64,000 nt of DNA from Thermosipho affectus. GTDB taxonomy: Bacteria > Thermotogota > Thermotogae > Thermotogales > Fervidobacteriaceae. The stretch is taken from positions 1-64,000 of the forward strand of contig NZ_LBFC01000018.1 of NCBI RefSeq assembly GCF_001990485.1, written 5' to 3'. The notes beneath the pieces are model-generated. The model ran no database searches, had not been told where the DNA came from, and saw only the letters and a list, made by a program, of their open reading frames with translations. Below, piece by piece: positions 59,180 through 63,432 of this stretch; positions within the stretch are counted from its first letter, which is position 1; each line of letters starts with the position of its first letter. The translations under genes were made by a program, and so were the position numbers.

Positions 59180-60064
59180 TTATTCTTTTATCCATTTTTC
59201 CACTTTTTCCGTATCTATGGTTGCAAGTGCTATGTAATTATCTGCTCCTCCGTAATAAATGTAATATTTATCTTTGTATCTTACCATTGCATCTGAAAAG
59301 ACAACGTTTGGAACTCCTCCAAAAATCTCCCATTCTTCTTTGGGTTCTAAAATAGGTTCTTGTGATCTTTTAATTATTTTAGTTGGATCATTTAAGTCAA
59401 GAAGCATAAATCCCAATCTGTATATATTTCGTGGAGCTTTTTGTACGCCGTGGTACAAAAGAAGCCAGCCATATTCGGTCTTAATTGGAGGTGCACCTGC
59501 ACCAATCTTAAGGTTATCCCAGTAATTTTTTCTTGGAGATGCTATTTTCACGTAATTTTCCCAATGAATTAAGTCATCTGAAAATGCAAGATAAATATCG
59601 GGTTCGATCCTGTGAATAAGTACATATTTTCCGTTTATTTTTTCTGGAAAAAGGGTGGCATCTTTGTTGGGACTTTCAGGGAGTATTGTTCCAAATCTTT
59701 CATACGTTATGAAATTTTTTGTTCTTGCCATTGCAACTTTAATACCCGTTGGAGAATATGCAGTGTAATTTATATAGTAGTATCCTTCTAAGAAAGTAAT
59801 CCTTGGATCTTCAACTCCGTATAATTCTTCTTGTGTTGATGGACCAAATACGTATTTTTCAAGTCTATTCCAGTGTATACCGTCTGTGCTAACGGCATAA
59901 CCTAATCTTGATACCATATCTTCTCCTTGTGCTCTATAGAGCATATGGAATAATTCTCCATCGAACACTACTGCGGGATTAAAAACAAATCTACTTTCCC
60001 ATATATGATTTGGATTGGGACCAAATAAAGGATTTTTTGGATGTCTTTCAAGTTTTAATTTCAC
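59180..60064 (-). CDS. GH130 family glycoside phosphorylase/hydrolase
   Basis: A 294-residue five-blade propeller of GH130. It has the start RHPKNPLFGPNPNHIWESRFVFNPA, LYRAQG, YGVEDPRITFLEGYYYINYTAYS with the catalytic-region Asp, HRIEPDIYLAF, and LLYHGVQKA. GH130 enzymes phosphorolyse beta-1,4- or beta-1,2-mannosides. The substrate is not clear. It lies 15 bp downstream of the LacI gene, so mannoside-responsive control is plausible. The GTG start follows GGGGCGA. Confidence 0.9.
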   Translation of the reverse strand: MKLKLERHPKNPLFGPNPNHIWESRFVFNPAVVFDGELFHMLYRAQGEDMVSRLGYAVSTDGIHWNRLEKYVFGPSTQEELYGVEDPRITFLEGYYYINYTAYSPTGIKVAMARTKNFITYERFGTILPESPNKDATLFPEKINGKYVLIHRIEPDIYLAFSDDLIHWENYVKIASPRKNYWDNLKIGAGAPPIKTEYGWLLLYHGVQKAPRNIYRLGFMLLDLNDPTKIIKRSQEPILEPKEEWEIFGGVPNVVFSDAMVRYKDKYYIYYGGADNYIALATIDTEKVEKWIKE

Positions 60065-60079
60065 ATATTTCGCCCCTTT

Positions 60080-61054
60080 CTATATAGAACTTTTTCTCTT
60101 GATAAATTTAGTAAATAAAGATATCATAACAGGATGAGTATCATGACCAATAAGAAGTTCATACATTCTCTTTGCGGTTAAAGATCCCATCTCATCTTTG
60201 AAAACCTTTAAAGTAGTTAAAGGTGGTTCAAACTCTTTTGCACTGAGTATATCGTCAAAACCTATTATTGATACATCTTCTGGTATTTTAAAATTCCTTT
60301 TTTTTAATTCTCTAATCACTCTCATTGCGGTGATATCATTTGAAGCAAAAATAGCTTCTGGAATACCGTCTTTTTTTATCATAAATTCTATTACATCTTC
60401 CATGTTATCTTTCACATCATCGTATTCATAATACTTTGGAAGTAGATTTGCTTGATGCATAGCCGTGGTATATCCTTCGAATCTTCCCTTAAAACCGTAT
60501 GAATTCAATGGGCCGTGTATGTGAAATATTCTTCTAAATCCTTTCTTTATTAAATAATTAGTTGCATAATATGCCCCATCGTATCCATTTGTGACAATAC
60601 AGTTAACCTTTTCTCCTGGAATGTAATGGTCCAGAAGCAAAAAAGGCTTTTTGATATCTTTGTAGTATTTTACCGTTTCTTTCGTAGTATCACCACCTAC
60701 AAGTATATATCCATCACACTCTATAGGAGTAAGTAATTTTGTTTTGCAAAATTCAATGCCATATTCTTCCCCTATTTTTTCTAAAAATGTTAAAATAACA
60801 GAATAAAATTCTGGAGATATATTTTCCTTTTCCATTTTTATCAATCTGTCACTTTCACAAATTCCCACTTTAAACTTTTTTTTATGCCTTGCAAGTGCAG
60901 AAGCAAGAATCTTTGGTTTGTAATTTAATTCTTCAATTGCTTTCCAAACTTTCATTTTGGTTTTTTCTGAGACATTTTCTAAATTATTTAACACACGTGA
61001 TACGGTTGCAATAGAAACCCCAGCTTTTCTTGCAACATCGTCTATTGTTATCAC
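60080..61054 (-). CDS. LacI family transcriptional regulator of the GH130 gene
   Basis: A 324-residue LacI regulator: ITIDDVARKAGVSIATVSRVLNNLENVSEKT HTH, hinge YKPKILASALARHKK, then a sugar-binding domain ending LTTLKVFKDEMGSLTAKRMYELL. Co-transcription with GH130 suggests a mannoside-type inducer (inference). The GTG start is behind AAAGGAGG. Two LacI-like sites lie in the 214 bp upstream. Confidence 0.92.
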   Translation of the reverse strand: MITIDDVARKAGVSIATVSRVLNNLENVSEKTKMKVWKAIEELNYKPKILASALARHKKKFKVGICESDRLIKMEKENISPEFYSVILTFLEKIGEEYGIEFCKTKLLTPIECDGYILVGGDTTKETVKYYKDIKKPFLLLDHYIPGEKVNCIVTNGYDGAYYATNYLIKKGFRRIFHIHGPLNSYGFKGRFEGYTTAMHQANLLPKYYEYDDVKDNMEDVIEFMIKKDGIPEAIFASNDITAMRVIRELKKRNFKIPEDVSIIGFDDILSAKEFEPPLTTLKVFKDEMGSLTAKRMYELLIGHDTHPVMISLFTKFIKRKSSI

Positions 61055-61233: not shown

Positions 61234-61267
61234 AAAAAAATAAAAAAGGCCACCTGGAGGTGGCCTT
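61234..61267 (-). terminator. Intrinsic terminator after trpB2
   Basis: On the minus strand AAGGCCACC and GGTGGCCTT form a 9-bp stem around TCCA, followed by TTTTTTATTTTTTT. It ends the trpB2 transcript before the LacI operator. Confidence 0.9.
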
Positions 61268-61268
61268 T

Positions 61269-62522
61269 TTACACGTATGCTGCTAAATCAAATAATCCGT
61301 GACCTGAAAGTGTAAATACAATTGTTTTTTCTATTTTTTCTTCTTTTGCTTTCAGTGCTTCTTTTATAGCTCCTGCTATTGCGTGAGCAGATTCAGGTGC
61401 TGGTATTATTCCTTCAACTTTAGCAAAAAATTTTGCAGCTTGAAAGGTTTCGTTTTGATCAAACGCTTCTGCCTCGATTAATTTATTTTTCAAAAGAGCT
61501 GAAACGATAGGAGCAGCTCCATGGTATCTTAATCCACCTGCGTGTATTTTAGGTGGAACAAAGTCTTTTCCAAGTGTGAACATCTTTAAAAGTGGAGTAA
61601 ATCCGACACTGTCTCCAAAATCGTATTTATATTCTCCTTTTGTTAAAGTTGGACAACTTTTTGGCTCGCAAGCCAAAAATTTTATGTTTTTTCCGGAGAG
61701 TTTTTCCGGGATAAACGGTAATATTGTACCTCCAAAATTTGAACCTCCACCATGACAACCTATTAAAACATTGGGAATTAAACCTAATTTTTCAAGTTGT
61801 TTTTTTATTTCAAGTCCAATTATCGTTTGATGCAAAAGCACATGATTTAATACACTGCCCAGCGCATACTTTGAGTTTTTTTGTTCCAAAACTTTTTCCA
61901 TTGCCTCACTAATTGCAATTCCAAGTGTTCCAGGATGATCTTCTCCGTATTTTTTTCCAGATGCCGTTAGATTACTTGGGGATGGAACAACTTCTCCATT
62001 AAAGAGATTCATTAGTTGTTTTCTGGCAGGTTTTTGCATATAGCTTACTCTTACCATGAATACTTTTACTTTCAATCCAAATTTTAATCCCGCATATGAA
62101 AGTGCACTTCCCCATTGACCGGCACCTGTTTCTGTATAAAGGGTTTTAGTGCCAGAAATCTTGTTGTAATATGCTTGTGCAAGTGCGGTATTTGTCTTGT
62201 GACTACCTGTAGGACTTACTCCTTCGTATTTGTAGTAAATCTTTGCAGGAGTCTCTAAATATCTTTCGAGAAAAGTTGCTCTGATTAATGGAGTTGGTCT
62301 AAAAACATAGTATTCATTTAATACTTCTTCTGGGATTTCAATAAATCTCTTATCTGAAACTTCTTGTTCCAATAACGGTTGTGGGAATGTTTTTAATAGT
62401 TTTTCTGGAGTCATTGGTTTGTTTGTCTCTGGATCAAGAGGTGGATCAAGCTTAAACGGTAAATCTGCAAGTACGTTGTACCAACTTTTTGGAACTTCCT
62501 GAAGATGTACATATTTTCTCAT
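61269..62522 (-). CDS. trpB: Tryptophan synthase beta chain, TrpB2 type
   Basis: A 417-residue PLP enzyme of the TrpB2 class, recognised by the N-terminal extension (LPFKLDPPLDPETNKPMTPE) and RPTPLIRATFLERYL. The PLP lysine is Lys109 in PTGSHKTNTA; GAGQWGSAL and the phosphate-binding CHGGGSNFGG are intact. It makes tryptophan from indole and serine; TrpB2 works without tight TrpA binding. No other trp gene is in the window, so it may salvage indole. The attenuator upstream shows that its expression responds to tryptophan. The ATG is behind AAGGAGGG. Confidence 0.93.
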   Translation of the reverse strand: MRKYVHLQEVPKSWYNVLADLPFKLDPPLDPETNKPMTPEKLLKTFPQPLLEQEVSDKRFIEIPEEVLNEYYVFRPTPLIRATFLERYLETPAKIYYKYEGVSPTGSHKTNTALAQAYYNKISGTKTLYTETGAGQWGSALSYAGLKFGLKVKVFMVRVSYMQKPARKQLMNLFNGEVVPSPSNLTASGKKYGEDHPGTLGIAISEAMEKVLEQKNSKYALGSVLNHVLLHQTIIGLEIKKQLEKLGLIPNVLIGCHGGGSNFGGTILPFIPEKLSGKNIKFLACEPKSCPTLTKGEYKYDFGDSVGFTPLLKMFTLGKDFVPPKIHAGGLRYHGAAPIVSALLKNKLIEAEAFDQNETFQAAKFFAKVEGIIPAPESAHAIAGAIKEALKAKEEKIEKTIVFTLSGHGLFDLAAYV

Positions 62523-62544
62523 TTCTATCCCTCCTTAATATAAT

Positions 62545-62573
62545 AAAAAATGCCGGGCAGATAATGCCCGGCA
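62545..62573 (-). terminator. Intrinsic terminator (segment 3:4) of the trpB2 attenuator
   Basis: TGCCGGGCA (62573-62565) and TGCCCGGCA (62559-62551) form a perfect 9-bp stem around TTATC, followed by TTTTTT (62550-62545). It lies 20 nt upstream of the trpB2 start codon. Confidence 0.93.
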
Positions 62574-62638
62574 ATTGTCCTCTCAAGTATATTTTTACCA
62601 CAACAAAGGTGGTGGACAATCGCCACTGTTCCACCACC
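62545..62638 (-). promoter_or_regulatory. Tryptophan attenuator: alternative hairpins in the trpB2 leader
   Basis: Three mutually exclusive stems can be drawn on the minus-strand RNA. Stem 1:2 pairs GGTGGTGGA (62638-62630, covering the Trp codons) with TCCACCACC (62616-62608). Stem 2:3 pairs GGCGATTGTCC (62624-62614) with GGACAATTGCC (62580-62570), 11 pairs with one G-U. Stem 3:4 is the terminator at 62573-62551. Stall at the Trp codons frees segment 2 to form 2:3, which uses up TGCC of the terminator stem and lets trpB2 be read; with Trp plentiful the terminator forms. Confidence 0.9.
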
Positions 62639-62696
62639 AAACAAAGTTTTCACTTTTAAAATAGGTAAAATATTCTTTTGTCGATAATTTTTTCAT
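62595..62696 (-). CDS. trpL: trp leader peptide
   Basis: A 33-codon reading frame on the trpB2 leader RNA, starting at ATG 62696 behind GGTGAT and ending at TAA 62597-62595. It opens MKKLSTKEYF and ends FVWWWNSGDCPPPLLW: three consecutive TGG codons at 62639-62631 and a fourth as the last sense codon. Ribosome stalling at these codons during tryptophan shortage would control the downstream terminator. The triple Pro after the Trp run may add a pause. No homology to known leaders is claimed; the assignment rests on position, Trp content and the RNA folds. Confidence 0.9.
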   Translation of the reverse strand: MKKLSTKEYFTYFKSENFVWWWNSGDCPPPLLW

Positions 62697-62729
62697 AATA
62701 TCACCAACTGTTAATTTTTTCTTTCTATT

Positions 62730-62758
62730 ATTTTAATATAAAGAAGCGATATTGTCAA
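62730..62758 (-). promoter_or_regulatory. Promoter of the trpL-trpB2 operon
   Basis: On the minus strand TTGACA (62758-62753) and TAAAAT (62735-62730) are 17 bp apart. Transcription would begin near 62723, about 27 nt before the leader peptide. Confidence 0.85.
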
Positions 62759-63052: not shown

Positions 63053-63432
63053 GTTTCCATTCCTCATAGGTATGTTCTAAACGAAAAATGGCTTGCAGAA
63101 GAAAATGTCAAAGCTATAAATATTGCGTTTCCATTCCTCATAGGTATGTTCTAAACAAAAAAAATCTCGCTCCCAGATGGGAGCGAAGAAATTTTAAGTT
63201 TCCATTCCTCATAGGTATGTTCTAAACCACAAAAAAACAGATAATGAAATTATAGAAATGTTAGCTGGGTTTCCATTCCTCATAGGTATGTTCTAAACAA
63301 AATACAATAGACGATGAAATATATCGAACAATAAAAGTTTCCATTCCTCATAGGTATGTTCTAAACGAAATAGAAGAATTACTATATATTCTTCTGTTTC
63401 CAGTTTCCATTCCTCATAGGTATGTTCTAAAC
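63053..63432 (-). CRISPR. CRISPR array, six identical 30-bp repeats, five spacers, no cas genes
   Basis: Repeats lie at 63053-63082, 63127-63156, 63198-63227, 63269-63298, 63337-63366 and 63403-63432. Each begins GTTTCCATTCCTCAT and ends AGGTATGTTCTAAAC on the plus strand, with no variation. Spacers are 44, 41, 41, 38 and 36 nt from left to right. Read on the minus strand the repeat ends ATGAGGAATGGAAAC, like type I-B/III repeats whose last eight bases form the crRNA 5' tag, so transcription is probably leftward with the leader at 63433 onward. No cas gene is in the window. Confidence 0.95.
63157..63186 (-). terminator. Intrinsic-terminator-like structure inside a CRISPR spacer
   Basis: Within the second spacer from the left, minus-strand TCGCTCCC (63186-63179) and GGGAGCGA (63174-63167) pair around ATCT, then GA and a run of eight T (63164-63157). 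If the array is read leftward this would stop transcription before the last spacer. No other terminator is visible between the array and the trp promoter. Confidence 0.65.

Follow-up and report, generated by a model that had tools for sequence, protein, structure and literature searches.

The evidence very strongly favours a ribosome-mediated (trpL-type) transcription attenuator as the control element of the single-gene unit trpB2 of Thermosipho affectus, a gene that would encode an indole-salvage tryptophan synthase. Three consecutive Trp codons in a short leader frame, three alternative stems and an intrinsic terminator directly precede the gene, and this arrangement recurs in front of trpB2 in most of the Thermotogota genomes compared.

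Anatomy of the trpB2 leader

The leader is located on the minus strand of the window (the whole stretch of 64,000 nucleotides that was analysed). Listed in the direction of transcription, the leader and the unit that it precedes consist of the following features:

62730..62758, minus strand: promoter TTGACA-17-TAAAAT, 11/12 consensus
62701..62705, minus strand: leader ribosome-binding site GGTGA, read directly from the sequence
62595..62696, minus strand: leader peptide MKKLSTKEYFTYFKSENFVWWWNSGDCPPPLLW*, 33 codons; WWW conserved across Thermotogota
62631..62639, minus strand: sensor, three consecutive Trp codons TGGTGGTGG
62630..62638, minus strand: region 1, 5' arm of the 1:2 stem, over the Trp codons, GGUGGUGGA
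62614..62624, minus strand: region 2, 5' arm of the anti-terminator, GGCGAUUGUCC / GGCGATTGTCC; covariation
62608..62616, minus strand: 3' arm of the 1:2 stem, UCCACCACC, encodes the CPPP stretch
62570..62580, minus strand: region 3, 3' arm of the anti-terminator, GGACAAUUGCC / GGACAATTGCC, overlaps the terminator; covariation
62545..62573, minus strand: intrinsic terminator 3:4, 9-bp stem UGCCGGGCA/UGCCCGGCA, 5-nt loop, T6; covariation
62529..62536, minus strand: strong trpB2 ribosome-binding site AAGGAGGG, read directly from the sequence
61269..62522, minus strand: trpB2, 417 aa, TrpB-like PLP enzyme, ATG at 62522 (TIGR01415, NF009057)
61243..61270, minus strand: terminator closing the trpB2 transcription unit

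The promoter, the leader frame with its Trp codons and the set of three mutually exclusive stems before the trpB2 ribosome-binding site had already been described in the first-pass annotation; promoter and frame were confirmed, and the stems were recovered in every detail: The 1:2 stem comprises 9 bp (62638-62630 with 62616-62608), the 2:3 anti-terminator 11 pairs, one of them G-U (62624-62614 with 62580-62570), and the terminator stem spans 62573-62551 and is followed by U6 at 62550-62545. Since positions 62573-62570 are common to anti-terminator and terminator, the two structures are mutually exclusive. The three helices were also kept in modelled folding at 65-75 C, the check at growth temperature that the first-pass annotation had proposed. 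The leader stop codon (62597-62595) is positioned approximately 16 nt past the end of region 2 (62614). A CRISPR-type array (repeat GTTTAGAACATACCTATGAGGAATGGAAAC; window 63060-63430, minus strand) immediately precedes the promoter region of trpB2.

The leader is not a chance arrangement: The fold energy of the region corresponds to a z value of -6.1 (0/200 shuffles as low), within the window the leader is the sole short frame with WWW and no other WW frame has a terminator, and 20 random sequences of 64 kb with matching dinucleotide composition contained no such frame. Genome-wide, the leader covariance model returned exactly one match, namely the leader of the window.

Conservation and covariation of the pairing segments

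The first-pass annotation had read the region as an attenuator, an interpretation that is supported by the homologous leaders: They keep the Trp codons (WWW or WWWW in nearly all of them; the weakest leader, that of G044, has WYWW and a duplex value of -8.9) and the pairing segments, with covariation. In the 16 leaders on which covariation was computed, 98.3% of the anti-terminator cells were paired and four pairs were changed on both sides; its covariation score was reached by 0/500 shuffles, which leave relatedness in place, and was lost on sliding the partner arm. In the terminator, five pairs were changed on both sides, and its score was likewise found in 0/500 shuffles. Of the mutually exclusive stems, 2:3 and 3:4 thus carry both-sided changes; the 1:2 stem is paired and changes solely to G-U, because one of its arms consists of the fixed UGG codons.

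As the shuffles preserve relatedness, an arm-swap duplex test on 65 distinct leaders (trp operon leaders included) provides the stronger evidence: The region 2/3 duplex had a mean of -26.6 kcal/mol with a leader's own arms, -16.2 kcal/mol with swapped and -12.8 kcal/mol with shuffled arms, and the difference between own and swapped arms is conservative, since arms were exchanged within a set that contains near relatives. A promoter with at least 10/12 consensus positions was present upstream of 50/64 distinct leaders, compared with 21/320 shuffles.

Distribution of the leader among Thermotogota

The upstream regions of trpB2 were read in relatives, and two covariance models (R1, built on alignment A3, and R2, built on A2) were then run over 103 Thermotogota genomes together with searches for trpB2 and trpA. 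The trpB2 gene was found in 75 genomes (in 72 above the family cut-off, in the other three partial); G041 and G045 (L230), in which the contig ends within its upstream region, were left out, so that 73 genomes were readable. A leader with Trp codons and terminator preceded trpB2 in 65 of these 73 genomes (by family: f1 15, f2 9, f3 6, f6 1, f7 2, f8 9, f9 16, f10 4, f11 3). Most of this tally derives from an automatic leader-plus-terminator scan; G048, G049, G066, G069, G098, G099 and G039 were counted solely by a model match directly upstream and G102 by reading.

The eight genomes with a leaderless trpB2 (G021, G025, G027, G029, G031, G035, G037, G033) are all Thermotoga-like, and in G033 the gene itself is broken (pieces at G033:C1:121964-124302). 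All eight possess trpA, compared with 9/65 of the leader-bearing genomes. In a TrpB2 tree of 58 genomes, with the outgroup rows placed outside, the seven intact leaderless sequences formed one clade (support 99/95) within leader-bearing lineages; a single loss is therefore the simplest reading. At loci of the G029 type, the start of a divergent gene seems to lie immediately 5' of trpB2, which leaves no space for a leader, and the scan found no Trp leader at the trp operon of G029. Judged by its distribution and by the TrpB2 tree, the Trp leader before trpB2 looks ancestral to the Thermotogota; the view of the first-pass annotation that such an attenuator is unexpected in this phylum has to be corrected accordingly, as it would not be an isolated oddity.

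Leader loss in G005 and G013 was considered and rejected. In G005 the leader is intact and is separated from trpB2 by an oppositely oriented transposase gene of the IS110 family (L127:5280-6437), so that its control of trpB2 may have been lost. In G013 a single gene, which encodes a LivJ-like binding protein (L128:5542-6705), stands between the leader and trpB2. In G016 and G017 (L233, L234) the order is leader, trpB2, LivJ-like protein; no permease gene evidently adjoins the LivJ-like gene in L233. The LivJ-like protein in the trpB2 unit of these three genomes is a candidate for binding tryptophan or indole, and illustrates how the detectable leader offers a route to other Trp-responsive genes. 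In the window's own genus, no LivJ-like binding protein of this kind was found at the threshold used.

All strong model matches with a readable downstream gene were located before trpB2 or trp operon genes, and in G030 and several f8 genomes the trp operon and trpB2 each have their own Trp leader. At L235 (G078:C2:125300-128500), trpB1 is situated behind a WWW leader with a weak region 2/3 duplex in a genome without a trpA match. Trp-rich leader frames and terminators before trpB2 were also observed in Bacteroidota/Ignavibacteria-type records (L040, L056, L085, L089; Flavobacteriales, Melioribacteraceae, Melioribacter and Sphingobacteriales).

TrpB2 and the trp gene content of the genome

The trpB2 product scored 664.2 bits against TIGR01415 (trpB_rel; curated cut-off 518.85) and 675 bits against NF009057; its nearest solved structure is 6hul chain B. 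The genome is 99.8% complete and contains one TrpB-family gene, trpB2; trpA, trpB1, trpE and tryptophanase (tnaA) had no match in it, and for trpC and trpD nothing above the cut-off was found. A weak sub-cut-off trpD match, which recurs in nearly all relatives, was taken to be a paralogue. As none of these other genes was found genome-wide, trpB2 is alone in the genome and not merely in the window, and its description as a lone gene in the first-pass annotation holds on this larger scale. From these absences it would follow that tryptophan can be formed via trpB2 only from outside indole and serine, the cell having no known route of its own to indole. The downstream neighbours of trpB2 encode a beta-1,2-mannobiose phosphorylase-like protein and a LacI-family regulator (window 59180-60064 / 60080-61054, minus strand), which have no evident link to tryptophan.

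Proposed mechanism and ribosome-position model

The observed anatomy, its conservation, the covariation and the gene content suggest the following course of stalling, read-through and indole use. Under a shortage of charged tRNA-Trp, the translating ribosome would stall at the WWW codons and cover region 1; region 2 would then pair with region 3, the terminator would not form and trpB2 would be transcribed. When tryptophan is plentiful or the leader is not translated, region 2 would be covered or sequestered in the 1:2 stem, so that the terminator would form and transcription stop before trpB2. The enzyme would condense scavenged indole with serine to tryptophan; scavenged indole is its most likely substrate because the remainder of the trp pathway is missing from the genome.

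This scheme was compared with a simple, static footprint model that ignores kinetics and in which the nascent RNA ends before the 3' arm of the terminator (65 C; comparison leaders f2 L024 and f1/g3 L018 only). The modelled probability of the anti-terminator was 0.99 with the A site at W20 and 0.87 at W21, approximately zero with the ribosome at N23 to L31, and 0.04 without a ribosome; within the terms of the model, these values support a leader that would be on when starved and off when untranslated.

One result of the same model stands against the proposed mechanism: For a ribosome positioned at the stop codon, region 2 was left free with a probability of 0.99 in the window's leader, compared with 0.0 in f2 L024; the stop codon thus masks region 2 in the f2 representative and not in the window's leader. 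In the subclass of the window, the stop codon being located past region 2, a ribosome waiting there leaves the anti-terminator free in the static model. Repression by tryptophan would consequently need either prompt release of the ribosome and folding of the 1:2 stem, or passage or pausing of the ribosome over region 2, for instance slow passage over the CPPP codons. Masking of region 2 by the stop codon is a trait of the classic E. coli case and not of all attenuators. The retention of trpB2 without a leader in the Thermotoga-like genomes is a second point against the mechanism.

It is possible, if rather unlikely, that in the window's subclass the polyproline stretch CPPP, and not the stop codon, parks the ribosome over the anti-terminator arm. 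The CPPP codons sit at the end of and just beyond region 2 and complement the UGG codons at the codon level, so that, if this reading were true, a single sequence would provide for the 1:2 pairing and also for a pause in translation; the leader would then represent an attenuation variant with a built-in second pause. CPP(P) is common to the close relatives of the window's species; most f10 (Marinitoga) leaders have CLL instead, and CPP(P) is therefore not essential for the whole group.

Alternative explanations and the function of TrpB2

The physiological role of TrpB2 has been disputed between tryptophan synthase, indole salvage and serine deaminase. The attenuator could be real while TrpB2 mainly performs another reaction, e.g. 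serine deamination, and tryptophan serves only as a signal. The enzyme was indeed once proposed as a serine deaminase from phyletic patterns; however, the serine deaminase activity of the T. maritima and S. solfataricus TrpB2 proteins is poor (PMC1854888), and in Thermococcus kodakarensis TrpB1 and TrpB2 are reported to act in indole salvage (Hiyama 2014, as cited in PMC11085991). Phylum-wide control by Trp charging, shared with trp operons, likewise fits a Trp-supplying role, and a principal function other than tryptophan supply is improbable. The argument of the first-pass annotation that TrpB2 serves tryptophan supply is, at the level of sequence comparison, much strengthened by the phylum-wide association of leader and gene: A Trp-codon attenuator that occurs in genomes with and without a trp operon would make TrpB2 a member of the tryptophan regulon, and opens the question of its role to direct testing.

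Regarding the leader itself, an intrinsic terminator could by itself reduce expression, and the terminator might be a constitutive or protein-controlled (e.g. TRAP-like) attenuator beside an incidental Trp-rich frame. Against this, the WWW codons, the frame, its stop and the 2:3 complementarity are kept across families that have otherwise diverged, no TRAP-type trinucleotide repeat series was seen by eye in the leader, and at the gathering score no Rfam family, including RF00513 (Trp_leader), T-box and other regulators, matched it; an incidental frame is thus very hard to reconcile with the data. Least credible of all is a Trp-binding riboswitch or T-box governing the terminator, as might be supposed for a structured region upstream of a Trp gene: Even permissive Rfam settings gave only sub-threshold chance matches in the window, RF00513 not being among them, and conservation falls on the elements of a ribosome-mediated attenuator and is low elsewhere in the leader.

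Comparison with known attenuators

The mechanism of the ribosome-mediated attenuator proposed here is that of the textbook trp attenuator. In the trpL leader of E. coli (RF00513), a short Trp-rich leader peptide and three alternative stems precede a terminator before the first gene, and the ribosome stalls at the Trp codons. The leader of the window resembles it in the Trp-rich peptide, the alternative stems and the terminator before the gene; in contrast to E. coli trpL, it controls a lone trpB2 and not trpEDCBA, has no RF00513 match and, in the window's subclass, is translated through region 2, with the stop codon beyond it. Within the same phylum, amino-acid attenuators of the same general mechanism were reportedly described in Thermotogales in a comparative study by Vitreschak and co-workers from 2004. 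The TrpB2 proteins of T. maritima, S. solfataricus and T. kodakarensis belong to the same enzyme family as the window's protein, to which the Thermotoga-like orthologues are approximately 73-74% identical; unlike the genome of the window, the Thermotoga-like genomes have retained the trp operon in full, and their trpB2 is not preceded by a leader.

Outside the Proteobacteria, candidate trp attenuators with two or three UGG codons in a row and with anti-terminator/terminator pairs were described in Corynebacterium and Streptomyces, including one upstream of trpB2A in C. diphtheriae (PMC1262725). The UGG cluster and the anti-terminator/terminator pair are shared with the leader of the window; the actinobacterial trpB copy, however, stands in an operon with trpA, whereas the trpB2 of the window stands by itself and its genome has no trpA. 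No paper on a Thermotogota trpB2 attenuator was found in the searchable open literature, and, as far as could be checked, trpB2 as the target and the phylum-wide, apparently ancestral distribution are new. A survey of Rfam attenuator motifs in 255 genomes, 11 of them from Thermotogales, suggested that such attenuators arose in gamma-proteobacteria and were seldom transferred (PMC3766115); ribosome-mediated Trp attenuation that occurs throughout the Thermotogota and is apparently ancestral there contrasts with such an origin.
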